Of a DNA stretch of 64,000 nucleotides, positions 4,355 to 33,633 are shown piece by piece. Source of the DNA: Pseudomonas sp. MM211 (GTDB taxonomy: Bacteria > Pseudomonadota > Gammaproteobacteria > Pseudomonadales > Pseudomonadaceae); assembly GCF_020386635.1 (NCBI RefSeq), contig NZ_CP081942.1:1550001-1614000 (forward strand), written 5' to 3'. The translations under genes and the position numbers were made by a program. The notes under the pieces were generated by a model. It searched no databases. It was not told the origin of the DNA and saw only the letters and a program-made list of their open reading frames with translations. Every line of letters starts with the position of its first letter. Positions within the stretch are counted from its first letter, which is position 1.

Positions 4355-4807
4355 TCACTGCGCCTGGCGCCCTCCGCGAGGTTGGCGCAGGCGTATGTCG
4401 ATCAGGGTGTCGTCTTCGTCATGCTCGAATCTGGCGCCTTGGGGCTTGGGCTTGCCTTTCAGGAGTGACGGATTGCCGGAGAAGCCCACGGGCTCGAGCG
4501 GAATGCCGCGCGGGCTGAGGTCGAGACGCCCGTTGCCGTTGGCGTCCTGAAACAACTGCAGAGCGTATTGCCCAGGTGGTACGTCTTTCAGGATCAGTTG
4601 CTCGCCTTCACCTTGCTGCTCGCGCAGCATCGGTTCCCAGCTTTCCTGGTCGGCAGCGACCAGTGCCAGGTAAAGCTTGGCGGCACTCTCGTTGCCTTCC
4701 ACGCGTATCAGCAGATCCCCCGCCTGCGCCGACAAAGAGGCGAACAGGAGAACCACTGCGCAGACCGTGCAGCGTTTGGTTACGATTTGAAGAATTCTCT
4801 GTGGCAT
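4355..4807 (-). CDS. DUF2141-family secreted protein
   Basis: A 150-residue exported protein. Residues 1-29 look like a signal peptide (KRCTVCAVVLLFASLSAQAG). The rest matches the DUF2141 family, recognisable by FQDANGNGRLD and by GIPLEPVGFS, a small beta-rich domain often found beside pigment genes. It reads away from darA; the two starts are only 31 bases apart, so they probably share a bidirectional promoter. A CATAAT hexamer at 4805-4810 could be a -10 box for darA. Function unknown; the position suggests an envelope role for the resorcinol/polyene pigment. Confidence 0.75.
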   Translation of the reverse strand: MPQRILQIVTKRCTVCAVVLLFASLSAQAGDLLIRVEGNESAAKLYLALVAADQESWEPMLREQQGEGEQLILKDVPPGQYALQLFQDANGNGRLDLSPRGIPLEPVGFSGNPSLLKGKPKPQGARFEHDEDDTLIDIRLRQPRGGRQAQ

Positions 4808-4838
4808 AATCCGCCCATTTTGCAGGGATTCGCTTTAA

Positions 4839-5756
4839 ATGCGTCAGGTTCTAGTCGTTCACTTCTCACAGACTGGCCAATTGAACCGCCTGGTGCAATC
4901 GGTCTGTGCGCCGTTGCAGGCGAGTGAAGGCATTCAGGTGGATTTCCTGGCGCTGCAACCGGCCAAGCCTTTTCCCTTCCCGTGGCCCTTTCTTGGTTTC
5001 TTCCGGATCTTCCCGGAAACCGTGTTGATGAAGCCGCAGCCGTTGCTGCCGCTGACGGTCGACCCCGAGAAACGCTACGACCTGATCATTCTCGCCTATC
5101 AGGTGTGGTTTCTGTCGCCGTCGCTGCCGTTCACCAGTTTCCTCGCGTCGCCTGAAGCCGCTCGGTTGTTGAAGGATACGCCGGTAGTGACCCTGATCGG
5201 TTGTCGCAACATGTGGCTGATGGCCCAGGAAAAGGTCAAGGCACGCCTGCAGGCACTGGGCGCGAAGCTGGTCGACAACGTGGTGCTCACCGATGCTTGT
5301 GGTACGGCGGCGAGTTTCCTGGCCACACCACTGTGGATGTTCACCGGCCGGCAGAAGCCCTACAGCTGGGTGCCACGCGCCGGTATCGACGAAACGGAAA
5401 TGGCCAATGCCGGCCGCTTCGGCGATGCCATGGCACGCCGCCTGCTTGCAGACGAGCAGCCCATCGAGCAGCCGATGCTCAGCGGCCTTGGTGCAGTCAA
5501 AGTGGATGAAAAACTGATCGCCAGTGAAAAGGTCGGCAATCGCAGCTTCACGCTATGGAGCCGACTGCTTACCGCGCTCGGCCCGCAGCAAAGCAAGCGC
5601 CGCGGCGCCGGGCTGGTGGTGTACATCGTCTTCCTGATCTGCCTGATTCTGACCGTGGTGCCGATCAGTGCCCTGTTGAAAAAGTTGTTGGCCCCGCTGT
5701 TCAAGGCGCGAATCCAGCGTGAAAAGGCCTACTTCGCCGGCCCGTCCGGCGAGTGA
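4839..5756 (+). CDS. darA: Dialkylresorcinol condensing enzyme (DarA-like)
   Basis: DarA-type enzymes join two beta-keto acyl chains and cyclise and aromatise them into a 2,5-dialkylresorcinol. This 305-residue protein has an N-terminal flavodoxin-like start (VLVVHFSQTGQLNRL). The domain continues to about residue 215, and a hydrophobic C-terminal helix (about 262-285, VYIVFLICLILTVVPISAL) followed by basic residues would anchor it to the inner membrane. It is first in a + strand run with darB, an unknown gene and a BtrH-like gene. The assignment rests on family resemblance and on the adjacent DarB-type KAS III. Confidence 0.85.
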   Translation: MRQVLVVHFSQTGQLNRLVQSVCAPLQASEGIQVDFLALQPAKPFPFPWPFLGFFRIFPETVLMKPQPLLPLTVDPEKRYDLIILAYQVWFLSPSLPFTSFLASPEAARLLKDTPVVTLIGCRNMWLMAQEKVKARLQALGAKLVDNVVLTDACGTAASFLATPLWMFTGRQKPYSWVPRAGIDETEMANAGRFGDAMARRLLADEQPIEQPMLSGLGAVKVDEKLIASEKVGNRSFTLWSRLLTALGPQQSKRRGAGLVVYIVFLICLILTVVPISALLKKLLAPLFKARIQREKAYFAGPSGE

Positions 5757-5775
5757 AGTGACCCGAGGTAATCCC

Positions 5776-6933
5776 GTGGTAACACCCGTATTCATCAATC
5801 GCATCAGTGCCAGCCTGCCCCATGACCCAGTCGACAACGAGCAGATGGAAGCTCGCCTCGGTATGGTTGGCGGCAAGCCATCGCGCGCCCGCAAGCTGGT
5901 CTTGCGCCGTAATGGCATTCAGCAGCGCCACTACGTCATCGACCCGCTGACCGGTGAGCCGAGCATGAGCAATGCGCAACTGAGCGCCGAGGCGATCCGG
6001 GGTCTGGTAGGGGAGGGGTTCGCGCTGGACAGCCTGGACTGTCTGGTCGCCAGCACTTCGTCTCCCGACCAAGTGATGCCAGGCCATGCGGTGATGGTGC
6101 ATGGCGAGCTGGGCAATCCGCCTTGCGAGGTCGCGACCACGGCGGGTATCTGCCTGTGCGGAATGACCGCGCTGAAATACGCCTGGATGAGCGTGGCCAG
6201 CGGTGAAAGTCGCAATGCCGTGGCCTGCGGCTCCGAAGTGGCTTCGACGCTGATGCAGGCGCGCAACTTCAATGCCGAGTACGAGAGCCGCGTCGAGGAG
6301 CTGGAGAACCATCCGGAGATCGCTTTCGAGAAGGATTTCCTGCGATGGATGCTTTCCGACGGTGCTGGCGCCGTGCTGCTGCAGGATCATCCCAACGCTA
6401 GCGGGCTGAGCCTGCGTGTCGACTGGCTGGATATCCTCTCGTTCGCCGACCAGATGCCCGCCTGTATGTATGCCGGCGCCGAGATGCAAGACGGCAGCCT
6501 GCGTGGCTGGAGCCGCTATGACGCCGATGAGCGCGCCCGTCAGTCGGTGATGGCGATCAAGCAGGACGTCAAACTGCTCAACGAGAACATCGTCAAATAC
6601 ACCGTGGAAGAGGCTTTGCGGCGCATCATGGCGCGCCGTGAGCTGCGCGTGGCGGACATCGACTGGTTCCTGCCGCATTACTCGTCGGAGTTCTTCCGCG
6701 ACCGTCTGGCCGTGGGGCTGGCCAATGTCGACCTGCCAATCCCGATGGAGCGCTGGTTCACCAACCTGACCAGCAAGGGCAACACTGGCGCAGCGTCGAT
6801 CTTCATCATCCTTGAAGAGCTGTTCAATGGCGGGCAGCTGCGCAGTGGCCAGAAGCTGCTGTGCTACGTGCCGGAAAGTGGGCGCTTCTCCAGTGCATTC
6901 ATGCACCTCACGGTGGTCGGCAATGAAGCTTGA
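5776..6933 (+). CDS. darB: 3-oxoacyl-ACP synthase III (DarB-like)
   Basis: KAS III-family ketosynthase expected to elongate an acyl-CoA or acyl-ACP to the beta-keto intermediate used by DarA. The 385-residue protein has the catalytic His301 (WFLPHYSSEFF) and Asn336 (SKGNTGAAS). The nucleophile lies in ATTAGICLCGM, either Cys126 or Cys128. The GTG at 5776 is preferred over an upstream ATG that would overlap darA, because an AGG-rich site sits about eight bases upstream. It overlaps the next gene by 11 bases. Adjacent darA-darB is the hallmark of dialkylresorcinol clusters, including flexirubin loci. Confidence 0.88.
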   Translation: MVTPVFINRISASLPHDPVDNEQMEARLGMVGGKPSRARKLVLRRNGIQQRHYVIDPLTGEPSMSNAQLSAEAIRGLVGEGFALDSLDCLVASTSSPDQVMPGHAVMVHGELGNPPCEVATTAGICLCGMTALKYAWMSVASGESRNAVACGSEVASTLMQARNFNAEYESRVEELENHPEIAFEKDFLRWMLSDGAGAVLLQDHPNASGLSLRVDWLDILSFADQMPACMYAGAEMQDGSLRGWSRYDADERARQSVMAIKQDVKLLNENIVKYTVEEALRRIMARRELRVADIDWFLPHYSSEFFRDRLAVGLANVDLPIPMERWFTNLTSKGNTGAASIFIILEELFNGGQLRSGQKLLCYVPESGRFSSAFMHLTVVGNEA

Positions 6934-7330
6934 CGAGGTTCCTCAGGATCACAGCTCCACCTACGGTGGCCACAGCAAGCTGGTCTACGCCGTGGATGCC
7001 AGCGGCCATTACCAGGGCACCCAAAGCGATGGCTGGGAGCCCGAGTCGTACTCCACTCAGCTCGCGGTCGCCGAGCTGGAGGCTCAGGAGGCCGAGGCCG
7101 AAGCAGCCTGGCGCCGTGGCGAGCTGTCGCCGCTGAAATGCCTGATGTATCGCTACCGCATGGACGAGCCGGCGCTGGCGCAGATCTCCGGGCTCTGGCA
7201 ATGGCGCGTGCGCCGGCATTTTCGCCCCGAGATCTACCGGCGCCTGAGCGATTCGCTGCTGGCCCGCTATGCCGAGGCCTTTGGCCTGCCCGTCGACGAA
7301 TTGCGTCGCTATCAGAAGGAGCTGCCATGA
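6923..7330 (+). CDS. Unknown protein of the dar operon, possible helix-turn-helix
   Basis: Not recognised with certainty; 135 residues. The first third is polar (DHSSTYGGHSKLVYAVDASG). The middle is an acidic helix (LEAQEAEAEAAWRRGE). The last 70 residues, ALAQISGLWQWRVRRHFRPE through LARYAEAFGLPVDELRRYQ, look like a compact helical domain resembling an XRE-type helix-turn-helix. The ATG at 6923 overlaps darB by 11 bases, and its stop overlaps the next ATG (ATGA), so it is co-translated with its neighbours. It may be a regulator or a partner protein of resorcinol synthesis. Confidence 0.7.
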   Translation: MKLDEVPQDHSSTYGGHSKLVYAVDASGHYQGTQSDGWEPESYSTQLAVAELEAQEAEAEAAWRRGELSPLKCLMYRYRMDEPALAQISGLWQWRVRRHFRPEIYRRLSDSLLARYAEAFGLPVDELRRYQKELP

Positions 7331-8322
7331 GCGCATTCGAGCACCGCCAGAGCGCCCACTGCGAAAGCGGCGTGATGGCCAGTCTGCTGACCCATGCCGG
7401 TCTGCCGATGAGCGAACCGATGGCGTTCGGCCTGGCCTCTGGACTGGCGTTCGCCTACCTGCCGATCGTCAAGCTGGGCGGCATGCCGCTGATTGCCTAC
7501 CGCATGCCGCCCCGTCACCTGATCAAGACGCTGAGCAAGCGCCTGGGCGTGCGCCTGACTAGCCGTACCTTCTCCAATCCCGAGCAGGGACGTGTCGCCC
7601 TCGATGCCGCACTCGACAGTGGGCGCCTGGCTGGGCTGCAGAGCTCGGTTTTCTGGCTGCCGTACTTTCCGCCAGAAATGCGCTTTCACTTCAACGCCCA
7701 CAACCTGCTGGCCTATGGTCGCGAGGGTAACGAATACCTGCTCAGCGACCCAGTGTTCGAGGCGCCGGTACGCTGTGCCGCCGAGGATCTGCAGAAGGCA
7801 CGCTTCGCCAAGGGTGCTCTGGCGGCCAAGGGGCTGATGTATTACCTGGACGACGTGCCGCCCGATCAGGACTGGGAGCGGCTGATTCGCAAGAGCGTGC
7901 TGTCGACCGCGCGTATCCTCGATGGCATGCCGCTGCCGTGGATCGGCATTCGTGGCATTGGCCACCTGGCCAAGCGCGTCGAGGCACTCGATCCGGCTCA
8001 GGCCAAGTACAACCGCCTTTACCTCACCCACATCGTGCGCATGCAGGAGGAGATCGGTACCGGTGGTGCAGGCTTCCGCTTCATGTACGCGAGCTTCCTG
8101 CAGGAGGCCGGCGAGAAGATTGGCGATACCACGCTGCAGGAAGCTTCGGTGCGCATGACCGCAGTGGGCGATGATTGGCGCCAGTTCGCCTCAGCGTGCG
8201 TACGGGCCAGCCGTAGCAAGGGCGAAGCGCCGGACTTCCGGCCGATCGCCGATAGGCTGCGCGGCATTGCCAGTCAGGAACGCGCCTTGATGAAAGAGCT
8301 TGGCGCCTGGGCCAAGCGCTGA
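7327..8322 (+). CDS. BtrH-like putative acyltransferase
   Basis: 331 residues. The N-terminal part resembles the BtrH_N domain, named for the butirosin enzyme that moves an acyl group from an ACP to an acceptor; the C-terminal part resembles DUF4872. A papain-like Cys-His-Asp set is visible: Cys12 (SAHCESGVMA), His125 (HFNAHNLLAYG) and Asp141 (YLLSDPVF). It is coupled to the preceding gene by an ATGA overlap and ends the dar operon. By analogy it could transfer an acyl chain from an ACP to the resorcinol, for example forming the ester between dialkylresorcinol and aryl polyene. That role is inference. Confidence 0.75.
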   Translation: MSAFEHRQSAHCESGVMASLLTHAGLPMSEPMAFGLASGLAFAYLPIVKLGGMPLIAYRMPPRHLIKTLSKRLGVRLTSRTFSNPEQGRVALDAALDSGRLAGLQSSVFWLPYFPPEMRFHFNAHNLLAYGREGNEYLLSDPVFEAPVRCAAEDLQKARFAKGALAAKGLMYYLDDVPPDQDWERLIRKSVLSTARILDGMPLPWIGIRGIGHLAKRVEALDPAQAKYNRLYLTHIVRMQEEIGTGGAGFRFMYASFLQEAGEKIGDTTLQEASVRMTAVGDDWRQFASACVRASRSKGEAPDFRPIADRLRGIASQERALMKELGAWAKR

Positions 8323-8597: not shown

Positions 8598-9149
8598 CTA
8601 CATCTGTAGCGTTACAACCTCGATGCCGACTGCCAGCTCAATGAAATCCTCTGCGGCGGTCGGTGCCTCGATCAGCACAGCCTGTGCCTGAAACTCGCCG
8701 TTCTCGTCGATCACCACCAGCAGCGCCTGGCTGACCACGCCATCTGCCAGATCCAACCCTGCCAATGCCTGCAGCTGTTTCCAGGCACGCGGCCCGGCAC
8801 CGATGAACAGGTTCGGCCCCTCCAGGCCCAGCTGTGCTGCGACGTGGAAGCCCGCGGCGTTGCTCACGCTGTTGACGAATTCGAAGGGCTTGGGCTGCAA
8901 CTGATGCACGCATACCGCGTCGAGCAGCGAGCCCATTGTCCCTCTTGCTGGGTGACGGGATGCCAGATAAAGCCCGCAGTCACTGCGTACCTTCGCCTTG
9001 AGTGGAGCGGTGCAAAGCAGCGCCTGGAGGATCAGCCGGTCGATGCGTCGAGGCGGGCTGGCCAGCCATTGGCTCAGGGTAGCCTTCAGATCCTTGTCGG
9101 AAGCGCTGGCGTCACCACTGACGCTGCACGCGGCGATGACTGTGCTCAT
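8598..9149 (-). CDS. Ketosynthase-like protein lacking the active-site Cys
   Basis: 183 residues, about half of a ketosynthase. The stretch SVSNAAGFHVAAQLGLEGPN aligns with the N-terminal half of KAS proteins. Where the nucleophile motif TACTS should be, the sequence is GPNLFIGAGPRA, so the catalytic Cys is missing. The active-site His loops of the C-terminal half are also absent. It starts inside the stop of the full ketosynthase before it (4-base overlap) and is last in its operon. It may act as a chain-length-factor-like partner of that enzyme. Not a decayed gene by appearance: the frame is intact. Confidence 0.75.
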   Translation of the reverse strand: MSTVIAACSVSGDASASDKDLKATLSQWLASPPRRIDRLILQALLCTAPLKAKVRSDCGLYLASRHPARGTMGSLLDAVCVHQLQPKPFEFVNSVSNAAGFHVAAQLGLEGPNLFIGAGPRAWKQLQALAGLDLADGVVSQALLVVIDENGEFQAQAVLIEAPTAAEDFIELAVGIEVVTLQM

Positions 9150-10249
9150 GGTGTTTCTCCCGTGCAGCGCTGCAGCACCAGGCTGGCGTTGTTGCCGCCA
9201 AAGCCGAAGAAGTTGGCCAACAGCAGGCTGTCATCGGCAATGGCGAGTGGCTCGCCTGGTAGCGGTAGCAGGGCTTCACTGGCGTAATCACAAGCCGGTA
9301 GGTGCCCGAGGTTCTGCACCAGCAGCAGGGTTTCAGCGAGGCCGCAGGCGCCCAGGGTGTGGCCAATCCACGGCTTGAGCACGCACAGCGGCGGCAGCGC
9401 CTCGCCAAACAGCAGGCGTACACCGTTGCTCTCGGCGCGATCATTGGCGCCGGTGGCGGTGCCGTGCAGTTTCACCAGGCCGATCTGCTCGACGCTGGTG
9501 TCTGCGCTGCGCAAGGCCTCGCGCATCACCCAGTCGATGTGGCTGCCGTCTTCGCGGGTGGTGGTCAGGTTGCTGGTGTCGCAGGCGCTAAAACCGCCCA
9601 GCAGCCTGGCCAGCGGTGCCGGGCCAGGTTCCAGTGCCAGCAGCGTGGCCACGTACGCTTCACCGAGCACCAGGCCATCACGCTGCGGGTGAAAGGGTCG
9701 GTAGAGGCCACTGGGCGAAATCAGATCCAGTGCGCCGAAGCCTTGCTGGGCTATCGCGCTGGGCGTTTCGAAAGCCAGCACCAGAGCGCGGCGATAAAGG
9801 TTCGCGCCGAGCAGTCGGGCGCCGTACAGCAGCCCGTTGGCGGCGCTGGTACAGGCGGTATTGAGGGTGAAGGCGTCGGCGAAGCCCCAGCGCTCGCGCA
9901 GCTGCTCGGCGATCAGGTCGAGGGAGGTCGAATGATCGGGGCGAAAGCCGCCGTCCTGTTTCGCCAGGTCTTCCAGTTCATTGATGTCCAGGCTGGTACT
10001 GGCCACGATCAACAGGCAATCCTCCAGCGCACTGTCGTCGCCAAGGGTCTCGCGGATCAGTCGGTCGAAGTGCTGGTCTCGGCTCTCGCCTGCCGCTACG
10101 GCCAGGTAAGGGCGTGGCTGCCGCAGTTCATGCAGTACGAAGGTGTCCGCCTCAGGCAGCACGCCGCGCTGCAGCGCCTCACCAGCCGCGCGTAGGTTCG
10201 CGCCAAGTGCACTGTGCAGAGCGCCTCGCTGGAGGTAGATGGGCGTCAC
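9146..10249 (-). CDS. 3-oxoacyl-ACP synthase (KAS I/II type)
   Basis: Condensing enzyme that extends an ACP-bound chain by two carbons. 367 residues with a full Cys-His-His triad: Cys133 in NTACTSAANG, His262 in KLHGTATG, His297 in KPWIGHTLGACG. The C-terminal NFFGFGGNNASLVL is typical. It lies between an ACP gene (start/stop overlap) and a Cys-less ketosynthase-like gene, a KS/partner arrangement reminiscent of KS/CLF pairs. It may serve the resorcinol acyl chains or the polyene chain. Confidence 0.88.
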   Translation of the reverse strand: MTPIYLQRGALHSALGANLRAAGEALQRGVLPEADTFVLHELRQPRPYLAVAAGESRDQHFDRLIRETLGDDSALEDCLLIVASTSLDINELEDLAKQDGGFRPDHSTSLDLIAEQLRERWGFADAFTLNTACTSAANGLLYGARLLGANLYRRALVLAFETPSAIAQQGFGALDLISPSGLYRPFHPQRDGLVLGEAYVATLLALEPGPAPLARLLGGFSACDTSNLTTTREDGSHIDWVMREALRSADTSVEQIGLVKLHGTATGANDRAESNGVRLLFGEALPPLCVLKPWIGHTLGACGLAETLLLVQNLGHLPACDYASEALLPLPGEPLAIADDSLLLANFFGFGGNNASLVLQRCTGETP

Positions 10250-10512
10250 TGTTTCTGCCTGATGAAGGCCGCGATACTGGCGATGCTATTGAGAATGCGC
10301 CGACCGTCCTTGGCGCCTTCGATGCGCACGCCGTAGTGCTGCTGCAACGCGAGCGAGACTTGCAGCGCGTCCAGGCTGTCCATCTGGATGCGGCTCTGCT
10401 GGCCGAACAGCGGCTCGTCGTCGTCGATGCTTTGCCAGTCGATGTCGTCTTCCTTGTCGCACTCGCGAATCAGCAATTGCTTGAGCTTTTCTTCTAGTAG
10501 TGTGTGGTCCAT
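10246..10512 (-). CDS. Acyl carrier protein
   Basis: 88-residue carrier protein. The phosphopantetheine-bearing Ser is in QMDSLDALQV, followed by the helix IASIAAFIRQ. The start at 10512 (MDHTLLEEKLKQ) is chosen as the ACP-like beginning; the frame extends upstream but only into the ABC permease gene, which it overlaps by 19 bases. One of three ACPs in the cluster. Its operon with KS and hot-dog dehydratase suggests a dedicated carrier. Confidence 0.88.
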   Translation of the reverse strand: MDHTLLEEKLKQLLIRECDKEDDIDWQSIDDDEPLFGQQSRIQMDSLDALQVSLALQQHYGVRIEGAKDGRRILNSIASIAAFIRQKQ

Positions 10513-11681
10513 TGCGTTTGCTGTACTCGTTTGTGGAACAGGAACAAGCCGCTGGCGCCGGCCAGTGCTGCGAACAGCAGCAGGCGTACGCACCAGGGGG
10601 CTATGTCGTTCAGTGAGCCATGGCCCACCAGCAGGGTGAGAAAGGCGTCGAGCGCCCAACTCATCGGGGAAACTTCCGCCAGTTGGCGCATGGCCTCCGG
10701 CATCACGCTCTTGGGCACCATGATGCCGCCGATGGCGGCGAGGATGATATTGATCCCGCCGCCAAGCAATAGGGCTTGTTCACTACTGCGTGCCAATGCC
10801 GCCAGCAGCAGACCCAGGCTGCTGGTGGCCAGTGCGATACTCGCAGCCAGCAGAGCGTAAGCGGGCAGGCTGCCATTGAGCTCCAGCGCCGGCAGACCGA
10901 CCAGTGGTAGGCCATGCATGCCAATGCTCAGCAGCAGCACGAACTGCAACAGGTTGATGGCCAGGTAAGGCAGCATCTTGCTCAGTGCCAGGGTGCCGAG
11001 CCCCAGGCCCAGGCAGCGGAAGCGCAGCAGCGCGCCACTCCGCTGCTCGCGCTGAAAGCTGCCGGCCATCGGCAGCACGACGAAGAACATGCCGAAGATC
11101 AGCCAGGCCGGGACGCTCATCTGCGTGGCGTTGGCCTGGTTGCTCAGGTCGCCGCTGGCCAGGCGCTCCTGCTCGTCGATCTGGCTCTCGGTACGTTGCT
11201 GGATCAGCTCGAGCTGTTCGGCCTGGGTGAGCCCCTCATCCAGCGCACCGCTGTCCTGCAGGTAGGCGAGCAGTCGGGTCTGCGCCAGGGCGATGGTGAC
11301 CGCGCCATGCAGGCGCTGGCGCGAGAGACGGTCGAACTGCGCGGGAAAGCTCAGGGTCGGCCCCTGGTGAGGCGTATCCAGCAGCCTGTCGTCGAAGTCG
11401 GCGGCCAGGCTGATGCGCGTCACCTCGGGCGGGCCGCTGGCCAGCAACTTGCTGTCAGGCAGTTGCGCCTGCAGTGCACTGTGGAAAAAACGGCTGGAAT
11501 CGCTTTGCTGCGGCGCATCGATTACCAACTGCAGGGGCGGCAGGCGATCCTGCAGGTAGCTGGACATGGCCCCGGCCATGATCACCAGAAACAGCGTCGG
11601 CATGATGAACAGCACGGCCAGCGCGTGCGGGTCACGCAGCAGCAGGAGGATTTCCTTGCGAACCAGGGCGCGCAGCCTCAT
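10494..11681 (-). CDS. ABC-2 type transporter permease
   Basis: 395-residue ABC-2 family membrane protein. An N-terminal helix (about 20-42) is followed by a large periplasmic loop to about residue 190, and then five or six membrane helices. It pairs with the ATPase encoded just upstream (4-base overlap). With the ACP, KS and dehydratase genes in the same run, it probably exports a lipid or pigment precursor across the inner membrane. Substrate is unknown. Confidence 0.85.
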   Translation of the reverse strand: MRLRALVRKEILLLLRDPHALAVLFIMPTLFLVIMAGAMSSYLQDRLPPLQLVIDAPQQSDSSRFFHSALQAQLPDSKLLASGPPEVTRISLAADFDDRLLDTPHQGPTLSFPAQFDRLSRQRLHGAVTIALAQTRLLAYLQDSGALDEGLTQAEQLELIQQRTESQIDEQERLASGDLSNQANATQMSVPAWLIFGMFFVVLPMAGSFQREQRSGALLRFRCLGLGLGTLALSKMLPYLAINLLQFVLLLSIGMHGLPLVGLPALELNGSLPAYALLAASIALATSSLGLLLAALARSSEQALLLGGGINIILAAIGGIMVPKSVMPEAMRQLAEVSPMSWALDAFLTLLVGHGSLNDIAPWCVRLLLFAALAGASGLFLFHKRVQQTQWTTHY

Positions 11682-13577: not shown

Positions 13578-13586
13578 GCCCCGCGT

Positions 13587-26227: not shown

Positions 26228-27769
26228 TTACGCATACAGGCTCCAGTGCTGGGCACGGATGCGTAGCAGGCACAGGCGTAATTCGCCTTCCAGGGCGCGA
26301 TCTTCGATCAGCGGCGGGAAGTCTTCGCCCAGTTGCCCGCGCATGTCCGCCAGGGCTGCCGGCAAAACGGTGGCCTCGGCGCGCTGGCGCAACCACACGC
26401 CCTGGTTGGCAGCCAGCAGCGTGGCCGCGGCGACCTGTTCGGCTAGTTCCAGGCTGCGCAGGGCGTCGCGGGCGGCGATGGTGCCCATGCTCACCTTGTC
26501 CTGGTTGTGGCATTCGGTGGAGCGCGAGAATACGCTCGCCGGCATGGTGTTCTTCAGCGCTTCGGCCGTCCAGGCGCTGGCGCCGATCTGCACGGCCTTG
26601 AAGCCATGGTTGATCATCGCGGTTTCCGTTGGGGCGCCGGATAGATTGCTTGGCAGGCCGTGGTTGTAACGGGTGTCGACCAGCAGGGCGAGTTGACGGT
26701 CGAGCAGGTCGGCGAGGTTGCCGATCAGGTTCTTCAAGCTGTCCATGGCAAAGGCGATATGCCCGCCGTAGAAGTGCCCACCATGCAGCACGCGCTCTTC
26801 ATCGGGATCGATCAGTGGGTTGTCGTTGGCGCTGTTCAGCTCGGTTTCGATGAACTGGCGCAGCAGCCCTAGGCTGTCGGCCAGCACGCCAAGCACGTGC
26901 GGTGCGCAGCGGATCGAGTAGCGATCCTGCAGGCGATGCAGCGGCGCGGTCGGCGCGTCGATGGCCAGATCCTGGCGAATCCAGGCGGCGACCTGATTCT
27001 GGCCCGGGTGCGGTTTGGCGGCGAACAGGCGTTCGTCGAAGTGCTCCGGGTTGCCCTGCAGGGCGATCACGTTGAGCGCGGTGATGCGCGTCGCCAGCTT
27101 GAGCAGGTAATCGGCACGGGAATAGGCCTGGCAGGCCAGGGCGGTCATCACCGCGGTGCCGTTCATCAGCGCCAGCGCTTCCTTGGGGCGCAGCACCAGC
27201 GGCGTCCAGCCCAGCTCGGCGTGCACGTCAGCGGCGCTGCGGCGCTCGCCGCGATACATCACCTCGCGCTCGCCACACAGGGTCGCAGCAATGTAGGACA
27301 GTGGCGTCAGGTCGCCACTGGCGCCCACCGAGCCCTCTTCCGGGATCAGCGGCAGCACGTCATGTTCGATGAACGCCTGCAGGCGCTCCAGCAGCTCCAG
27401 GCGCACCCCGGACATGCCCTGGCACAGCGACTGCAAACGAGCAGCCAGCACTGCACGGGTGGCCTGCTCGTCGAGCAGCTTGCCCAGGCCGCAGCCGTGG
27501 AAGGTATACAGATGACGCGGCAACGCCTCGACCTGATGCAGCGGCACGGCCACTACGCAGGAGTCGCCATAGCCGGTGGTGATGCCGTAGATCATGCCTT
27601 CGCGGTCGAGCAGGCTGTCGACGAAGCGTGCGCCGCGGCCGATGCGATCGCGCCATTCGGCACTGCCATCCAGCTCGCCGCGCGCACTGCGCTGGGCCAG
27701 GCCGACGATCTGTTCAAGACGCAGCGGCTGAGCGCCGAAGGTCACCGTTTCAGGCTGATTGGTTGTCAT
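26228..27769 (-). CDS. Aromatic amino acid ammonia-lyase (HAL/PAL/TAL family)
   Basis: 513-residue lyase that removes ammonia from an aromatic amino acid through the self-made MIO group. The MIO triad Ala150-Ser151-Gly152 is present in GSVGASGDLTPL, and the catalytic Tyr61 is in YGITTGYG. The substrate-selection pair reads Phe90-His91, in HLYTFHGCG, where TAL has His-Leu, PAL Phe-Leu and many HAL Ser-His. In flexirubin and related clusters a tyrosine ammonia-lyase supplies 4-coumarate as aryl starter; that is its likely role here. Start 27769 follows the acyltransferase with a 20-base overlap. Confidence 0.88.
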   Translation of the reverse strand: MTTNQPETVTFGAQPLRLEQIVGLAQRSARGELDGSAEWRDRIGRGARFVDSLLDREGMIYGITTGYGDSCVVAVPLHQVEALPRHLYTFHGCGLGKLLDEQATRAVLAARLQSLCQGMSGVRLELLERLQAFIEHDVLPLIPEEGSVGASGDLTPLSYIAATLCGEREVMYRGERRSAADVHAELGWTPLVLRPKEALALMNGTAVMTALACQAYSRADYLLKLATRITALNVIALQGNPEHFDERLFAAKPHPGQNQVAAWIRQDLAIDAPTAPLHRLQDRYSIRCAPHVLGVLADSLGLLRQFIETELNSANDNPLIDPDEERVLHGGHFYGGHIAFAMDSLKNLIGNLADLLDRQLALLVDTRYNHGLPSNLSGAPTETAMINHGFKAVQIGASAWTAEALKNTMPASVFSRSTECHNQDKVSMGTIAARDALRSLELAEQVAAATLLAANQGVWLRQRAEATVLPAALADMRGQLGEDFPPLIEDRALEGELRLCLLRIRAQHWSLYA

Positions 27770-28685
27770 GGTCGTTCCAGAACGGATAGAAATTGAACCA
27801 CTGCCGCGGGGCTTGCAGGCAGCGTTGGGCCAGGTGGTCGGCGTAGCGTTGTGCCCAGCCTTGGATGACCGCTTCGCGCTCACTGCGCTTCCACTGCACG
27901 GCATCGGTAAAGGGCTGCAGCATGACCTTGTAGCGGCCATCGATCTTCAGGCAATCGATCAGGTTGACCGGGCACTGCAGCAGCCCGGCGAGTAGCCAGG
28001 GGCCCTGAGGCAGCGGTGCCGACTGGCCGAGAAAGTCCACGTTCACCGTACGCTCGCCGTGCAGTGGCACGCGGTCGCCGGCAATCGCCAGCCATTCGCC
28101 GCGCTCCAGGTGATCTGCGAGGCGCATCATCACCGCCGGATCCAGCTCGCTGACCTGAATCAGCCGCAGGTTGTTGGCGCCGGTTTCCTTGAGCAGGCGA
28201 TTGAACTGCTCGGCATGCCGGGTGTGAACGAGCACGTTCATGCGCACCTGGGCGCTCAGCTCGGCCAGGGCGCGGCATACTTCGAGATTACCGAGGTGGG
28301 CGCCGACCAATAGCTGGCCGCGTGTTCCGCTCATCTGGCCGTGCAGGCCGTGCGGATCGATCAGCTCGATATCGCTGAAATTTAGGCGGCCGCTCCATAC
28401 GTCCAGCTTGTCCAGCAGGCTGTCGGCGAAAGCCATGAACTGGGCGAATACCGAGCGACGGGTCGGGCGCAGCTCAGGGCGGCCGCTCCAGCTTGCGAGG
28501 TTGTTCTGATACTGGCGAACGCTACGCCGCGCCTTGGCGCCAAACAGGAAAAAGTAAGCGACGATCAGGTGCAGCAACGGGCTCAGCGCACGGCGACCCA
28601 GGTAGCGGGAGGCCAGGGCGGTGAATTTCATCAGGGCGAAACTGCCGCGCTCGCGCTGGCCGGCCCAATGCCTGCTGCGATCCAT
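27750..28685 (-). CDS. Lipid A acyltransferase-like protein (HtrB/LpxL fold)
   Basis: 311-residue membrane-associated acyltransferase. The N-terminus HWAGQRERGS is the typical beginning of the polyene-cluster acyltransferases, followed by a hydrophobic stretch (LSPLLHLIVAYFFLFGAKA). The LpxL-like motif LLVGAHLGNLEVCRAL carries the H-x4-E site and is followed by AIAGDRVPL. Its start overlaps the glycosyltransferase stop by one base. It probably transfers the polyene or a fatty acyl chain onto the glycosylated lipid product. Confidence 0.87.
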   Translation of the reverse strand: MDRSRHWAGQRERGSFALMKFTALASRYLGRRALSPLLHLIVAYFFLFGAKARRSVRQYQNNLASWSGRPELRPTRRSVFAQFMAFADSLLDKLDVWSGRLNFSDIELIDPHGLHGQMSGTRGQLLVGAHLGNLEVCRALAELSAQVRMNVLVHTRHAEQFNRLLKETGANNLRLIQVSELDPAVMMRLADHLERGEWLAIAGDRVPLHGERTVNVDFLGQSAPLPQGPWLLAGLLQCPVNLIDCLKIDGRYKVMLQPFTDAVQWKRSEREAVIQGWAQRYADHLAQRCLQAPRQWFNFYPFWNDHDNQSA

Positions 28686-29434
28686 CAGCGCCACCGCCGG
28701 TAGAGCAGCCAGGGCGCCCGGCAGAGCATGCCGAAGAACAGCCGCGCATGCATTTTCGAGATCAGCACGTTGTCCTGCCACAGGCGGAAGTGCGAGATGC
28801 CGTCCGCAGGGTAGTGCACACGAGTCGGCAGCCAGCGCATGGGCTGCCCGCGCCAGGACAGGCGCACGAGAATTTCCGAGTCGAAATCCATGCGCTTGCC
28901 GAGTTTCGCCGAGTCGATCAGCGCCACGCTGGCAACCAGCGGGTAGACACGAAAGCCGCACATGGAATCGCGGATCTGCAGCGACAGGCTGTTGATCCAC
29001 ACCCACACGTGAGTCAGGTAGCGGGCGTAAAGGCGGCCCTTAGGCACGCTGGCGTCGTACTGCGGGTAGCCGCAGACAATCGCTTCGGGATGGGTGCGGG
29101 ATTCGTCGAGAAAGGCCTGTACCGCCAGCAGATCGTGCTGACCGTCGGCGTCCACTTGCAGGGCATGGCTGAAACCCAGGCGCTGCGCCTCGCGCAGGCC
29201 GGCCATTACCGCGCCGCCCTTGCCTTGGTTGTCCGCTAGGCGCAAGAGGTGGACATCGGCTTGCTTGGCCAACTCGTCCATCACCGCAGCACAGCTCGGG
29301 CTGGATGCATCATCGACCAGCACGCAAGGCAAGCCGGCGTCGAGCAGCGCGGTCACCACGTTGGGCAGCGGCCCTTCATGGTTGTACACCGGGATCAGCG
29401 CGCAAGGGCGATGAACGGCTGCAATCGGCGTCAT
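28685..29434 (-). CDS. Family 2 glycosyltransferase
   Basis: 249-residue GT-A fold glycosyltransferase. The N-terminal CALIPVYNHEGPLPNVV is typical of GT2. The metal-binding DxD motif is in LQVDADGQHDLLA, and the acceptor/base region reads DFDSEILVRLSWRG. The family resembles dolichol-phosphate-mannose synthase-like enzymes. In aryl polyene loci this gene precedes the HtrB-like acyltransferase, as here. Coupled by ATGA to the AMP-ligase gene before it. Confidence 0.88.
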   Translation of the reverse strand: MTPIAAVHRPCALIPVYNHEGPLPNVVTALLDAGLPCVLVDDASSPSCAAVMDELAKQADVHLLRLADNQGKGGAVMAGLREAQRLGFSHALQVDADGQHDLLAVQAFLDESRTHPEAIVCGYPQYDASVPKGRLYARYLTHVWVWINSLSLQIRDSMCGFRVYPLVASVALIDSAKLGKRMDFDSEILVRLSWRGQPMRWLPTRVHYPADGISHFRLWQDNVLISKMHARLFFGMLCRAPWLLYRRWR

Positions 29435-31089
29435 GGCGCGGCCTTGAGCAGGATGCGGCCGGAGGAGCAACTGGCCTCGCCGTTGCGGAAGGTGAAGTAC
29501 AGCTTGTTGCGCTCGGCGTCGAAGCGCAGGGTCAGTTGCAGGCGGTCGCCAGGGCGCACCAGTTGCTGGAACTTGAGCACTTCCATGCCGCCGAACAATG
29601 GCGGCAGATCGCTGATCAGGGTGCGCGCGAGCTGCTGCGCCCAATCGATCTGCACCACGCCAGGAAGCACCGGCGTGCCTGGAAAGTGACCGCTGAAATG
29701 CGCCAGATCCAGGGGCACGTCCAGCTCCAGATGCCACTCGCCTTGCTCTTCCCGCGCGCTGATTGGCTCGACCCGCGTGGGGCGATCGGCGGCCAGCAGG
29801 TCGTTGACCTGTGCCTGACCCAGCTTGCCCTGGCTGCTGTACGGCAGATGGGGCAGCAGGCGCCAGCGGCGTGGCAGGGCGATGGTCTCGCAATGGCCGG
29901 CCAGGTGCTGGCGCAGGCCCTCGGTCAGATGACGGCGGCCCTGGTTGCGCAGCACGTGCAGGCCTTCGGGAGACAGCGCCACCAATGCGCCGAGAAAGGC
30001 ACGGCCCTGCTGCAATACACCCAGGCGTGCCTCAACGACCCAGTCGTGCAGCGCCAGGGCCTGTTCCAGCAGGGGCAGGGAAATGCGTTTTTCTTCCAGC
30101 TTGACGATGCGATCCAGGCGCGCGCCGAGAATGAAGCGGCCATCGGCGTCGATTTGCGCGGCGTCGGCCATCTGTTCCCAGTGCCCGGCGGGCAGATAAG
30201 GCGAGCTCAGGCGCAGTGCGCCTTCGTCGTTCAGCTCGAGCCTTACGTCAGCGAAAGGCAGCCAGTGTTCGCCACCCTGACGCCAGGCGATGCCGCCGGT
30301 TTCCGAGCTGCCGTAGATTTCCGTCGGCCACTGGCCCAGACGCTGCTGCACGGAGGCGGCCGCCTCGGCTGGCAATGCGCCGCCAGAAGAAAACACCTGG
30401 CGTACGCGGCTCAGTGCCGGCCAGTCCAGGTTGTCGCCCATGCGCTTGAGCAGCGCCGGGCTGGTGATCCAGGCGAAAGCCGGGTGGGGCAGGCTGGCCA
30501 GTTGCAGGTCTTCAGGGAAGGGCAGTGCCCTGGGCAGAAATACCCGTCCGGCGCACAGTGGCCAGAGTACGCGGAACAGCAGCCCGTAGATGTGCTGGGC
30601 GGCCACGCTGCCGATGATCAGCGCATCGCCGAGGCGCTCGCCCCACAGGTTCTCCAGTGCCTGCACTTCGTTGGCCAGTTGGCCGAGGCTCTTGTCGATC
30701 AGCTTGGGTTCGCCACTGGAGCCCGATGTGCACAGGGTCAGGCGGCAGCGCTCGCGATCCAGCGGGCGAGCGGCCAGCGGGGCGGCGGCCATGGAATCAT
30801 CGAGGCGCTCCAGCCACAGGTCGACCTGGGCACCAAGGCGCTGGCGCGTCTGTTGCTGGGCATCGGCAGGCAGCAGCACGTGAATGTCGGCCTGCCAGGC
30901 AGCGAGCAGGGCGATGGCCAGTTCGGAGGCGTCCTCCAGGTGCAGCGCAACGTGCTTCACGCCTGCGCTCTGCCACTGCGCCGCCAGGCTCAGTGCGCGT
31001 TGACACAGCTGCGCGTGATCGAGCGCTGGGGTTACCGGGCGGCTGGCATCCGCCTCCAGCAGCAGGTTTTCGAGGCTAAGCCAGTTCAT
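29431..31089 (-). CDS. AMP-ligase fused to a C-terminal hot-dog dehydratase domain (ApeH-ApeI-like)
   Basis: 552 residues with two parts. Residues 1-445 form an acyl-adenylate ligase: P-loop-like LTLCTSGSSGEPKLIDKS, EIYGSSETGGIAWR and a C-terminal GARLDRIVKLEEKRIS motif. Residues about 450-552 form a hot-dog domain with HFSGHFPGTPVLPGVVQIDW, matching ApeI/FabA-like dehydratases. The ligase would activate coumarate or hydroxybenzoate for loading on an ACP. In E. coli these two functions are separate genes. Start 31089 gives MNWLSLENLL and follows the upstream gene with a 4-base overlap. Confidence 0.88.
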   Translation of the reverse strand: MNWLSLENLLLEADASRPVTPALDHAQLCQRALSLAAQWQSAGVKHVALHLEDASELAIALLAAWQADIHVLLPADAQQQTRQRLGAQVDLWLERLDDSMAAAPLAARPLDRERCRLTLCTSGSSGEPKLIDKSLGQLANEVQALENLWGERLGDALIIGSVAAQHIYGLLFRVLWPLCAGRVFLPRALPFPEDLQLASLPHPAFAWITSPALLKRMGDNLDWPALSRVRQVFSSGGALPAEAAASVQQRLGQWPTEIYGSSETGGIAWRQGGEHWLPFADVRLELNDEGALRLSSPYLPAGHWEQMADAAQIDADGRFILGARLDRIVKLEEKRISLPLLEQALALHDWVVEARLGVLQQGRAFLGALVALSPEGLHVLRNQGRRHLTEGLRQHLAGHCETIALPRRWRLLPHLPYSSQGKLGQAQVNDLLAADRPTRVEPISAREEQGEWHLELDVPLDLAHFSGHFPGTPVLPGVVQIDWAQQLARTLISDLPPLFGGMEVLKFQQLVRPGDRLQLTLRFDAERNKLYFTFRNGEASCSSGRILLKAAP

Positions 31090-31631
31090 GCGAATCTCCT
31101 TACACGTTGACGCACCAACCATTCGCCGGCGAATAGCAGGCCCATCAGGAGGTAGGAAATCAGCCCGGTGTAGAGCGCCCACCAGGACAGCGGCGCCCAC
31201 AGGTTCAGGGCTACCACGACCAAGCCGTTGGCGAGCAGAAAAATGGCCCACACTTCGGTCACCCGGCGCGTGTAACGCACCGCGACCTCTGGCAACTCGG
31301 GTTCGTGCAGGCGTGCCAGGCGTTCGGCCATCGGCATGCCGATCTTCAGGCTGCTGGCGAACAGCACCAGTAACAGCGCGCTGACTAATACCGGATACCA
31401 GCGCAGCAGCGCCGGCTCGTCAGCCAGGGCGAGCAGCAGGCAAAACACCAGCACCGCGCCGGTCATGCGGCGGCTGTTACGGTCGTGCGGGTTGCTGAGC
31501 AGGCGCGCCAGCCAAAGGCCGCCGAGCAGCCCGGCGAACAACGCCGGTGAAAGGTGGCCCGCGCCGAAATACACGGCGAACGGATAGGCCACACTGACCA
31601 GCGCTACCAGCAGGCCAAGCAGACGGCTCAT
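31086..31631 (-). CDS. Small polytopic membrane protein of the polyene cluster (COG4648-like)
   Basis: 181 residues with five or six hydrophobic helices and conserved-looking loops (SNPHDRNSRRMTGAVLV; RYTRRVTEVWAIFLL). Proteins of this type occur in aryl polyene clusters between ACP and ligase genes. Enzymatic role unknown; possibly a scaffold for the assembly line at the membrane. Overlaps by four bases on both sides. Confidence 0.82.
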   Translation of the reverse strand: MSRLLGLLVALVSVAYPFAVYFGAGHLSPALFAGLLGGLWLARLLSNPHDRNSRRMTGAVLVFCLLLALADEPALLRWYPVLVSALLLVLFASSLKIGMPMAERLARLHEPELPEVAVRYTRRVTEVWAIFLLANGLVVVALNLWAPLSWWALYTGLISYLLMGLLFAGEWLVRQRVRRFA

Positions 31632-31885
31632 GCGGGTTCCGCGTTGACCAGCTGATACACCGCTTCGACCACGTCACCGACGGTACGCACCGACTTGAAC
31701 GCTTCGGCGGCAATCTTCTTGCCGGTCTGGCGCTTGATATGGTCGATCAGGTCGACAGCATCGATGCTGTCGATTTCCAGGTCTTCGTAGAGATTGGCGT
31801 CCAGGCTGATCCGCTCGGGGCTCAGCTCGAACAGCTCCACCAGAGCGTCGCGCAAGGTGGCGAAAATTTCGTCACGGGTTTGCAT
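31628..31885 (-). CDS. Acyl carrier protein (aryl polyene, second ACP)
   Basis: 85-residue ACP. The phosphopantetheine Ser is in LEIDSIDAVDLIDH, preceded by the ELSPERISLDANLYEDL helix-loop. It lies 11 bases from the ACP gene before it, so the two carriers are made together. Two adjacent ACPs are a constant feature of aryl polyene clusters (ApeE/ApeF). Confidence 0.93.
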   Translation of the reverse strand: MQTRDEIFATLRDALVELFELSPERISLDANLYEDLEIDSIDAVDLIDHIKRQTGKKIAAEAFKSVRTVGDVVEAVYQLVNAEPA

Positions 31886-31896
31886 GGTGGTTGTCC

Positions 31897-32157
31897 TCAG
31901 GCTGCCTGGCGGCTGGCAACGAAGGCTGCCAGGCTGGCCACGTTGGCGAAATGGGTGCGGGTGTCCTTGGCTTCGGCATCGATCTTGATGCCGAAACGCT
32001 TCTGGATCGCCAGGCCCAGTTCCAGGGCGTCTACCGAATCGAGGCCTAGGCCTTCACCGAACAGGGTGAGGTCGTCGCCGATGTCCAGAGGGGTGATGTC
32101 TTCGAGTCCCAGAGAGTCGATGATCAGTTGTTTGATCTCAAGCTTTAGAGCGCTCAT
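31897..32157 (-). CDS. Acyl carrier protein (aryl polyene, first ACP)
   Basis: 86-residue ACP with modification site LGLDSVDALELGLAI. The start at 32157 (MSALKLEIKQL) overlaps the acyltransferase gene by 20 bases; a longer frame upstream is inside that gene. One ACP of the pair probably carries the aryl starter and growing polyene. Confidence 0.93.
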   Translation of the reverse strand: MSALKLEIKQLIIDSLGLEDITPLDIGDDLTLFGEGLGLDSVDALELGLAIQKRFGIKIDAEAKDTRTHFANVASLAAFVASRQAA

Positions 32158-32947
32158 CGCTTGCGAGCTCCTTAATGAAATGCTGATGCAAATGGTCGTT
32201 GAGTTTGCGAGATGCAACCGGTGCCGCGCCCATGGCAGCGAACTGCCCCGGGTCAATGTCCTGGCCCACCCGCAGGTGAACGTGAAAACGCCGCGCTGGA
32301 ATACGGTACCAGGGCTCCGCTTTGGTCAGTGTGGTAGGTGAGACGCTGATAACTACCGGGGTAATCACACGGGCGCCACGCAAGGCGATGGCCGCGGCGC
32401 CGCGATGGAACTCTGGTGGGCAGCCAGGCGTCGTGCGCGTGCCTTCCGGAAAGATCACCAGGGTCTGGCCTTGCTGCAATACGCCGGCCGCTTCGTCGAG
32501 CATGTCCATGCTGCCGCTGTTGCTGATGTAACCCGCTGAGCGGATCGGCCCACGCATGCAGGGGTTGTTCCACAGGCTTTGTTTCACCACGCAGTTGGCG
32601 TTGCGGGTAAAGGCGATGGTCACCACCACATCGATCAGCGAAGGGTGATTGGCAATGATCATCTGCCCGGGGCGGCCCAGGCGTTCGGCATTTTCGACTT
32701 CATAGGTGAGCACGCCACTGCGGTGCATGAATTTGACGAAGGTACGGAAATTCCAGCTCACCACTTGCCGGGCGCGGCGCTGATGGGCGGCGGCGTCGCC
32801 CGGTAGCAGAGACAAAGCCGGAAACACCAGCACACGCAGCATCACGCCGCCGATACCGAACAGGGTAAAGCTCGCCGCCGTGGCGATCAGCCGCCACCAG
32901 TAAGGCGCGCTGTAGCGCTTCACAGGCTTTTGTGTGACCAGATCCAT
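32138..32947 (-). CDS. 1-acylglycerol-3-phosphate acyltransferase-like protein (PlsC family)
   Basis: 269 residues with an N-terminal membrane helix (about 20-45). The PlsC catalytic motif HX4D is NHPSLID, and the acyl-acceptor motif is FPEGTRT. The start at 32947 (MDLVTQKPVKRYS) lies inside the preceding gene. Such acyltransferases are conserved in aryl polyene clusters and may attach the polyene chain to glycerol phosphate or a similar lipid head. Confidence 0.9.
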   Translation of the reverse strand: MDLVTQKPVKRYSAPYWWRLIATAASFTLFGIGGVMLRVLVFPALSLLPGDAAAHQRRARQVVSWNFRTFVKFMHRSGVLTYEVENAERLGRPGQMIIANHPSLIDVVVTIAFTRNANCVVKQSLWNNPCMRGPIRSAGYISNSGSMDMLDEAAGVLQQGQTLVIFPEGTRTTPGCPPEFHRGAAAIALRGARVITPVVISVSPTTLTKAEPWYRIPARRFHVHLRVGQDIDPGQFAAMGAAPVASRKLNDHLHQHFIKELASDERSKA

Positions 32948-33633
32948 TGGCGCTCTTTCCAGGTGTGTTCGAGGGTTGCGCAGCCATTGCACAGAGCTTG
33001 TATCAGGCTCAGTGGATGCGGCCACTGCGTGCGCGGGCCGGTGCCCGTGCGTAGCTGCAAGTCCCAGTCGTCGCCGGGCACCAGTAGTAAAGCCAGTGCG
33101 TAAGGGAACGGGACATCATCGATGAATGGGGCGTAAAGCTCCGGTTGCGCTTCCTCGCCAATCACCAGCAGCACGGCTGGCGCGCCATCGGCGAGTAGCG
33201 TGGCTGCCTCCAGCATGGCCATCTCCAGGCCATCGCCTTCGCCAGCCAGCGCGGTCATCTCGCTGGTGTCGCCGCGTAGGATCGACCACTGACCGATGAT
33301 CGCGTTGTGTACTGAAAGACTGAACTGCGTCGGCGACAGCGGCTCTGCTACTGCAAGGTCTTGAAGAATGGCCAGGCTTCGCGGCGTTTCGCCATGGCGC
33401 GAAGCGAATACCAGCGGCAGCGCCGAGTGACCCTCGGCAAGCGGCCAGGCGACCTGGAAAACCATGCGAGCCAGGCGGCTCAAGCGACGGCGTTGCAGGG
33501 CTGGCAGGAAGCTGACATCAGGCTGTTCGCCAGTATCGTGCAGGCGTTCGGGCGCCTTGCTCCAGGCGAGCCAGTCATCCGTACTGTCCAGGCCAGGAGC
33601 CCAGGCACGCCATTGATCAATCCTGAAATGCAT
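32920..33633 (-). CDS. Beta-ketoacyl synthase chain-length-factor-like protein
   Basis: 237 residues of the ketoacyl-synt_2 type. It starts FRIDQWRAWAPGLDSTDDW and contains PTQFSLSVHNAIIGQWSI, which aligns with the KS region before the nucleophile. No catalytic Cys or HGT motif follows. It is the first gene of the long polyene operon. In characterised clusters its homolog (ApeC-like) pairs with ApeO to set chain length. Start 33633 is the Met of MHFRID; an upstream extension of 22 residues is possible. Confidence 0.88.
   Translation of the reverse strand: MHFRIDQWRAWAPGLDSTDDWLAWSKAPERLHDTGEQPDVSFLPALQRRRLSRLARMVFQVAWPLAEGHSALPLVFASRHGETPRSLAILQDLAVAEPLSPTQFSLSVHNAIIGQWSILRGDTSEMTALAGEGDGLEMAMLEAATLLADGAPAVLLVIGEEAQPELYAPFIDDVPFPYALALLLVPGDDWDLQLRTGTGPRTQWPHPLSLIQALCNGCATLEHTWKERQWIWSHKSL

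Follow-up and report, generated by a model that had tools for sequence, protein, structure and literature searches.

A hybrid aryl polyene-dialkylresorcinol locus in Pseudomonas sp. MM211 with DarH as candidate joining enzyme

Introduction

Gene clusters combining the biosynthesis of an aryl polyene (APE) with that of a dialkylresorcinol (DAR) have been described in several bacteria. Arcuflavin, reported in 2014 from Azoarcus BH72, is a polyene-DAR hybrid (PMC3949708), and hybrid APE-DAR clusters V1-V3, in which an APE part resembling that of E. coli/V. fischeri is joined to a DAR part, were reported in 2023 in marine Pseudomonadaceae including Pseudomonas sp. 8O (PMC10165715). Here we analyse a locus of the same composition in Pseudomonas sp. 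MM211, whose genome is a single contig of 5.28 Mb. It lies in a stretch of 64,000 nucleotides of NZ_CP081942.1 (positions 1,550,001 to 1,614,000, forward strand); this whole stretch is called the window, and coordinates refer to it unless the contig is named. A DAR cassette (4839-12962) and an APE block (15150-33633, minus strand) stand side by side, and we consider it probable from the gene content that the locus makes an APE-DAR ester of the arcuflavin/flexirubin kind located in the outer membrane, with the BtrH-related protein DarH as the best candidate for forming the ester between polyene and resorcinol.

A sequence-only reading of this DNA had proposed darA-darB adjoining a full APE assembly line with exporter over about 29 kb, and hence a hybrid DAR-APE locus in a Pseudomonas. 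Open reading frames (ORFs), NCBIfam/Pfam scans and BLASTP confirm the arrangement, the gene content supports the hybrid assignment, and the Azoarcus precedent it invoked holds, arcuflavin being such a hybrid (PMC3949708). Its claim of novelty does not stand: the hybrid kind is already published for Azoarcus (PMC3949708) and for Pseudomonas (PMC10165715), and the MM211 locus is another member. In the literature consulted, the enzyme joining polyene and resorcinol in flexirubins and arcuflavin has so far been guesswork, the Azoarcus BtrH-like gene being listed merely as a peptidase (PMC3949708). What is new here is the argument that DarH may be the linker, together with the collinearity of its neighbourhood in 80 of 80 loci and its co-occurrence with APE genes, by which the ester pigment proposed earlier gains a candidate enzyme.

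Results

Organization of the locus

Gene parts were checked by ORF listing and by NCBIfam and Pfam profile scans. The locus is bounded by the end of a DUF2141 gene (4355) and the likely start of apeC (33633), bringing together darA-darB, the former named from context, and polyene ketosynthase (KS), chain length factor, ketoreductase, dehydratase, ligase and acyl carrier protein (ACP) genes. The DAR cassette consists of two convergent units, darA-darB-darG-darH on the plus strand (4839-8322) and six genes on the minus strand running from 12962 to 8598 in the order dehydratase, ABC ATPase, ABC permease, ACP, KS and lastly a KS-like protein lacking the active cysteine:

4839..5756, plus: darA, predicted DAR aromatase; precedes darB in 80 of 80 loci
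5719..6933, plus: darB, StlD/DarB-type ketosynthase-cyclase (NF005293, 598 bits, cut-off 450)
6923..7330, plus: darG, small conserved protein (DarG_fam, 173 bits, cut-off 70)
7327..8322, plus: darH, BtrH-related acyltransferase (DarH_acyl, 476 bits, cut-off 300; BtrH_N and DUF4872)
8598..9149, minus: KS-like protein without active-site cysteine, 183 aa, at the darK position (hhalign to the ApeO profile)
9146..10249, minus: KS, darJ-like (PF02801; Cys-His-His retained)
10246..10512, minus: ACP, darC-like (PRK09184 47 bits, cut-off 70; PP-binding 19.7, cut-off 20.8)
10494..11681, minus: ABC transporter permease, darI-like (matches under curated cut-offs)
11678..12562, minus: ABC transporter ATPase, darF-like (Walker and signature motifs conserved)
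12555..12962, minus: ApeP-like hot-dog dehydratase (hhalign to ApeP, E 3e-7)

DarA matched none of the NCBIfam and Pfam models and owes its name to the position of its gene before darB in all 80 loci; the true darB start probably lies near 5788. The KS-like protein aligns with the ApeO profile over 70 columns (70% probability, E 4e-5) and has no Pfam match. At least 97% of 69 sequences retain residues C133, H262 and H297 of the darJ-like KS, and the ACP, weak as its family scores are, carries a DSL serine motif conserved in at least 97% of 65 sequences. The dehydratase was assigned by profile comparison because a sequence search of solved structures gave no true relative; it likewise matches no Pfam or NCBIfam model, and its His12 and Glu53 are invariant in 22 of 22 sequences.

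The APE block runs from 33633 to 15150 in the order C-D-E-F-G-HI-J-K-L-M-N-O-P-Q-R, as in E. coli, but an ammonia-lyase gene separates J from K, and three genes, for a membrane protein, a halogenase-like flavoprotein and a methyltransferase, separate M from N:

32920..33633, minus: apeC, chain length factor (PF13723, 256 bits)
32138..32947, minus: apeD, acyltransferase (39% to E. coli ApeD)
31897..32157, minus: apeE, ACP (NF006617, 86 bits, cut-off 70)
31628..31885, minus: apeF, ACP (NF003757, 127 bits, cut-off 65)
31086..31631, minus: apeG, membrane protein (39% to E. coli ApeG)
29431..31089, minus: apeH-apeI fusion, AMP-ligase and dehydratase (PF00501 and PF22818 in one frame)
28685..29434, minus: family 2 glycosyltransferase, one half of ApeJ, start uncertain (PF00535)
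27750..28631, minus: lipid-A-type acyltransferase, other half of ApeJ (PF03279; 34% to E. coli ApeJ)
26228..27769, minus: aromatic amino acid ammonia-lyase (HutH subfamily 391 bits, cut-off 524; FlxA 305, cut-off 700)
25764..26207, no strand: tandem array of 123-nt dispersed-repeat units, taken as non-coding
25323..25748, minus: apeK, thioesterase (50% to E. coli ApeK; NCBIfam thioesterase matches under cut-off)
24718..25326, minus: apeL, LolA-like chaperone (PF19574; LolA2_flexi 48 bits, cut-off 125)
22386..24728, minus: apeM, MMPL/RND exporter (PF03176; 29% to E. coli ApeM)
21241..22389, minus: membrane protein (no NCBIfam or Pfam match)
20010..21254, minus: halogenase-like FAD oxidoreductase, ArcA-like (PDB 3nix, 357 bits; WFWTIP in sequence)
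19271..19999, minus: S-adenosylmethionine-dependent methyltransferase (generic NCBIfam matches)
18792..19274, minus: apeN-like DUF3261 lipoprotein (PF11659, 24.2 bits, cut-off 22.3)
17587..18795, minus: apeO, KS (NF006618, 525 bits, cut-off 407; 44% to E. coli ApeO)
17009..17590, minus: apeP, dehydratase (PF22817, 79 bits)
16396..17124, minus: apeQ, ketoreductase FabG2 (TIGR01831, 395 bits, cut-off 339; 59% to E. coli ApeQ)
15150..16376, minus: apeR, KS (NF006587, 726 bits, cut-off 470; 56% to E. coli ApeR)

The apeP frame encodes 193 aa compared to 149-160 in relatives and overlaps apeQ in a different frame (17009-17124).

Comparison with described clusters

By family and order, the two convergent DAR units match the Azoarcus BH72 dar locus as given in Table 1 of its description, sharing darA, darB, the small conserved gene, the BtrH-like gene, the ABC pair, ACP, KS and a hypothetical protein, and the arc genes for halogenase, LolA, exporter and AMP-ligase are shared as well (PMC3949708). 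The second KS/ACP/dehydratase set with an ABC exporter, which the sequence-only reading had placed between the DAR and polyene units, is present but is not a separate set, being the DAR cassette's own much as in Azoarcus. Azoarcus has two unlinked polyene clusters with a XanB2-type chorismatase providing 3-hydroxybenzoate, whereas MM211 has one block with an ammonia-lyase; the Azoarcus dar locus includes a PilT/prevent-host-death pair and no listed dehydratase, whereas here a dehydratase and no such pair are found (PMC3949708). The XanB2/ArcB chorismatase that marks the arcuflavin type was not named for any ORF of 4355-33699 in the NCBIfam scan; no search for it was made elsewhere in the genome.

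The cluster of Pseudomonas sp. 8O, a species other than that of the window, shares the order hemE, darABGH, the KS-ACP-ABC-dehydratase set and apeR-apeO at 62-94% protein identity, the comparison covering the locus up to apeO; the joining of an E. coli/V. fischeri-like APE part to a DAR part is that of the V1-V3 clusters (PMC10165715). The flexirubin cluster of Chitinophaga pinensis shares ammonia-lyase, AMP-ligase, ketoreductase, dehydratases, LolA, exporter and darA/darB (PMC3992019).

Ape letters were given to E. coli isolate 23S01245-7 (NZ_OZ197100.1) by the gene order in PMC8253772. For fifteen of its 17 Ape proteins (B to R), BLASTP finds a counterpart in the window, and the order matches, the ApeC-to-ApeR set being of E. 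coli/V. fischeri type; ApeB and ApeN have none in the window, the cluster containing a methyltransferase and a DUF3261 protein. In E. coli, ApeH and ApeI are separate and ApeJ is one protein, whereas here ApeHI is fused and ApeJ is split, and the annotated 35 kb of the E. coli locus contain no DAR genes, ammonia-lyase or halogenase-like protein, all of which are present in the window.

DarH as candidate joining enzyme

DarH scores well above the cut-off of a family already named BtrH-related acyltransferase in NCBIfam. As a sequence search against solved structures gave no true relative, DarH was placed by fold comparison. Its AlphaFold model (pLDDT 83.5, pTM 0.86) is closest to AziU3/U2, CtaG and CcbD (PDB 8gs1, 9qvj, 7yn1), which cover nearly the full chain with about 290-305 residues aligned at 10-17% sequence identity and rank above C39 and papain-like peptidases. 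Cys12, His125 and Asp141 are invariant in 44 of 44 sequences; in the model Cys12 starts the first helix, His125 starts a strand and Asp141 follows the next strand, giving the fold with Cys-His-Asp of the CtaG/CcbD-type cysteine acyltransferases. The PDB titles of CtaG name Cys11, His128 and Asp144 as mutated. The predicted AziU3/U2-CtaG-CcbD fold together with the invariant triad makes DarH the best candidate for the ester bond. In work on closthioamide, CtaG is predicted to transfer a carrier-bound hydroxybenzoyl group to a chain on a second carrier protein (PMC6772006), and by analogy DarH might deliver the polyene of ApeE/F to the resorcinol. With its conservation, co-occurrence and predicted active site, the linker question can be reduced to one gene and one residue.

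The C-terminal half of DarG is modelled with high confidence and may adopt a Cro/C1-like helix-turn-helix fold. Sequence support is weak, the DarG profile finding no convincing match among PDB sequences; no Foldseek match lies below 0.001, and helical folds reach middling Z by chance. The best structural match, 3kxa of Neisseria gonorrhoeae, was not taken as a homologue at an identity of 16-19%. As a guess, DarG may regulate the pathway or serve as a docking protein.

A wider proposal, which taken jointly we rate somewhat below an even chance, is that DarH would belong with CtaG and CcbD as a papain-like cysteine acyltransferase, making an aryl ester with a polyene delivered by a carrier protein and acting as general joiner of polyene-resorcinol pigments, with the darA-darB-darG-darH core converting any APE cluster to a hybrid, DarG being a sensing/docking switch of Cro/C1 fold, a lyase with an unusual Phe-His selectivity pair providing the start and a new arcuflavin-like pigment as product.

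Conservation and co-occurrence with polyene genes

We retrieved 80 named loci with DarH, the best of 324 related places, and compared the window genes by tblastn; distant DarH relatives are not seen because of this selection. The nearest named relatives by DarH, among these best 80 of 324, are P. flavescens, P. daroniae, P. dryadis and P. punonensis. The order and strand of darA-darB-darG-darH are the same in 80 of 80 loci, with identities of about 70-97% across Pseudomonas loci, and all six minus-strand DAR genes are matched in 56, the other 24 being L018, L031 and 22 of L058 to L081, mostly from other genera. As in the window, the cassette lies between hemE and apeR in 19 loci (flavescens/straminea and mendocina/alcaliphila type). 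Judged by these sequences, the grouping of the DAR genes is more than chance.

In the genus sample of 298 genomes, 21 have DarH and 234 have ApeR over cut-off, and 24 have a DarB match, which exceeds the cut-off in 23; one genome with a weak DarH match (137 bits, under cut-off) was not counted, and some genomes appear identical to those of the retrieved loci. ApeR is present in all 21 DarH genomes (Fisher p 0.010, kinship ignored), and no DarH over cut-off is found in the other 213 ApeR genomes. DarH and ApeR are about 7.7-7.9 kb apart in six genomes, 54-58 kb in five and 0.93-0.98 Mb in two, the distance being unmeasurable in 8 of the 21.

The flanks of the 80 loci contain at least two APE genes in 34 cases and fewer than two clear matches, mostly none, in 45; L063, with an ApeC match (45%) alone, was assigned to neither group. 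Weak single or double matches occur in L017, L021, L026, L042, L079 and L081, and the flank of L076 shows a weak ApeD-like and a 39% ApeR-like match. The genomes of these 45 loci have ApeR over cut-off in 43 (40/42 and 3/3), and the remaining two, a Desulfocapsa and a Proteobacteria metagenome-assembled genome, encode distant ApeO/ApeC/ApeR-like genes. A phylum sample of 398 genomes yielded DarH in 13, three of them counted already; of the ten others, six have ApeR over cut-off and four have distant APE-like genes, which share a short stretch with the cassette in G606 and G695 and lie about 19-27 kb off in G616 and, in the weakest case G710, as ApeO-like and ApeC-like genes and a weak flavoprotein match on a contig other than the cassette's. 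The ApeR marker NF006587 misses some APE types, being under cut-off in 2/42 and 4/10 genomes. PF13723 is matched in all six, and since it may also match the long KS-like DAR protein, their DNA was checked for other Ape-like genes, of which several were found, G710 having just those named above. DarH is thus accompanied by an APE-type assembly line in every genome tested (21/21, 45/45 and 10/10), in six of them by distant homologues alone.

Proposed pathway and alternative explanations

Gene content, conservation, co-occurrence and predicted folds are the evidence for the model that we favour, in which an aryl acid, from the ammonia-lyase or as 4-hydroxybenzoate from central metabolism, would be loaded by ApeH on ApeE/F. 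By homology to characterized enzymes, ApeR would start the polyene and ApeO-ApeC, ApeQ, ApeP and ApeI would extend it (PMC8253772). The DAR cassette would use its own ACP, KS, KS-like protein and dehydratase to prepare an acyl chain, DarB would condense and cyclise, and DarA would aromatise the ring to the dialkylresorcinol, in line with the names DAR-cyclase and DAR-aromatase for the two enzymes (PMC3949708). DarH, whose predicted fold, invariant residues and co-occurrence were computed, would take the polyene from ApeE/F onto Cys12 and pass it to a resorcinol hydroxyl forming the ester, and the ABC pair and the ApeL-M-N set would export the hybrid.

Several points weigh against this model. 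The curated flexirubin models all remain under cut-off (DarG 122 of 170 bits, FlxA 305 of 700, FlxB 270 of 340, LolA2 48 of 125), as does resorcinol_DarB (NF053539) for DarB with 488 of 550 bits. Among the open-licence PMC papers that our searches found, none came to notice with a product of a Pseudomonas hybrid APE-DAR cluster, this strain included. The genus co-occurrence test is weak because ApeR is common without DarH too (213/277; background 79%), and APE plus DAR need not mean a hybrid, since three DarB genomes (G060, G150 and G164) without DarH over cut-off all have ApeR. Of the 13 genus genomes in which the distance could be measured, 7 have DarH and ApeR separated by 54 kb to about 1 Mb. 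Within the window, the C-terminus and 3' end of apeP are altered and the repeat array is situated inside the APE transcription unit. The structural evidence for DarH derives from AlphaFold predictions. CtaG and CcbD form amides, not phenol esters, the acceptors of AziU3, CtaG and CcbD being amines or carrier-bound chains whereas a phenol acceptor is proposed for DarH. For flexirubin in C. pinensis, the proposed linker is the ligase-like FlxW and not a BtrH protein (PMC3992019). Finally, pigment colour is confounded by a carotenoid operon.

The distances between DarH and ApeR would also fit two separate products, a free dialkylresorcinol acting as signal or antibiotic and exported by the ABC pair, and a polyene lipid of E. 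coli type, with DarH acylating something else. The convergent, opposite transcription units agree with this, as does the retention of ApeD and ApeJ-type acyl/glycosyltransferases, predicted in E. coli to attach the polyene to lipid (PMC8253772). We nevertheless regard separate products as unlikely, given that an APE-type assembly line occurs alongside DarH in every genome tested, that few DarB genomes of the genus sample lack DarH (3/24) and that in Azoarcus a nearly equal set of dar genes is connected with a hybrid even though the clusters there are unlinked (PMC3949708). Less probable again is a hybrid linked by ApeD, an ApeJ half or ApeH, with DarH modifying a DAR precursor: the ligase-like enzyme proposed for flexirubin (PMC3992019) and the several acyltransferases of the locus speak for it, but ApeD and ApeJ are also present in E. 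coli, whose annotated APE locus has no DAR genes, and DarH over cut-off is missing from most ApeR-bearing genus genomes, as given above.

That the locus is silent or decayed although intact by sequence, any colour being carotenoid, appears very improbable to us. The repeat array, the changed apeP end and the carotenoid genes elsewhere in the genome would suit this explanation, but the frames are open and of expected sizes, and the conservation of darA, darB, darG and darH at about 70-97% in Pseudomonas loci argues against it. The carotenoid operon, at 3626566-3631942 of NZ_CP081942.1, comprises crtY, crtI and crtB over curated cut-offs, with a glycosyltransferase frame before the crt genes and a 164-aa frame without match after them. 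Because of this separate operon, colour cannot test the hybrid pigment preferred here, and in yellow pseudomonads colony colour does not separate carotenoid from aryl polyene; arylpolyene, resorcinol and carotenoid clusters occur together in P. seleniipraecipitans ABP-B9, which has a yellow water-insoluble pigment (PMC12239753).

Starter unit and tailoring enzymes

The ammonia-lyase is a possible source of the starter unit. The ASGD motif and the selectivity pair Phe87-His88 are present in 34 of 34 sequences, the window's own included. This pair differs from those of tyrosine (His-Leu), phenylalanine (Phe-Leu) and histidine (Ser-His) ammonia-lyases. In the flexirubin work, the substrate is considered not predictable from sequence (PMC3992019). 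As the enzyme is found at an identity of at least 81% in 50 of 59 genus genomes, 45 of these 50 without DarH over cut-off, we rejected it as special to the hybrid locus; it belongs to the usual content of APE clusters in Pseudomonas. For the flavoprotein, the best match is PDB 3nix, followed by the halogenases 3e1t (168 bits) and CmlS (133 bits), making halogenation of the polyene head group possible. The neighbouring membrane protein (21241..22389) may be antiporter-like by our reading of its sequence, as Azoarcus arcG is annotated.

Flanking genes and further features of the window

Two genes adjoin the DAR cassette:

4355..4807, minus: DUF2141 protein (PF09912, 68 bits), divergent from darA; matched in 63 of 80 loci
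13050..13577, plus: ICMT/PEMT-type membrane methyltransferase (PF04191, PF04140); matched in 54 of 80 loci

The DUF2141 and darA frames are divergent and 31 bases apart. The gap between the DAR and APE blocks contains the methyltransferase and three small proteins, one of them a Sbal_3080-type lipoprotein. The methyltransferase, matched also at loci without APE genes near the cassette, could methylate the resorcinol or be a passenger. The repeat array consists of three copies between the ammonia-lyase gene and apeK; its units, which we take to be of repetitive extragenic palindromic (REP) type, occur at 68 places in the genome, the array itself counted, and the array was therefore rejected as special to the pigment locus.

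A sigma-70 scan of 4300-17000 gave one site compared to 2.0 in shuffles, and no promoter is claimed in this region. There are no tRNA genes in the window and no Rfam families at gathering score in 4000-34000. Outside the locus, GC content drops to as little as 0.45 at about 41-47 kb; this stretch contains small frames, five of six scanned having no Pfam match, and at its edge a CcdA-CcdB toxin-antitoxin pair is encoded at 40443-41098 (Pfam 97 and 122 bits).

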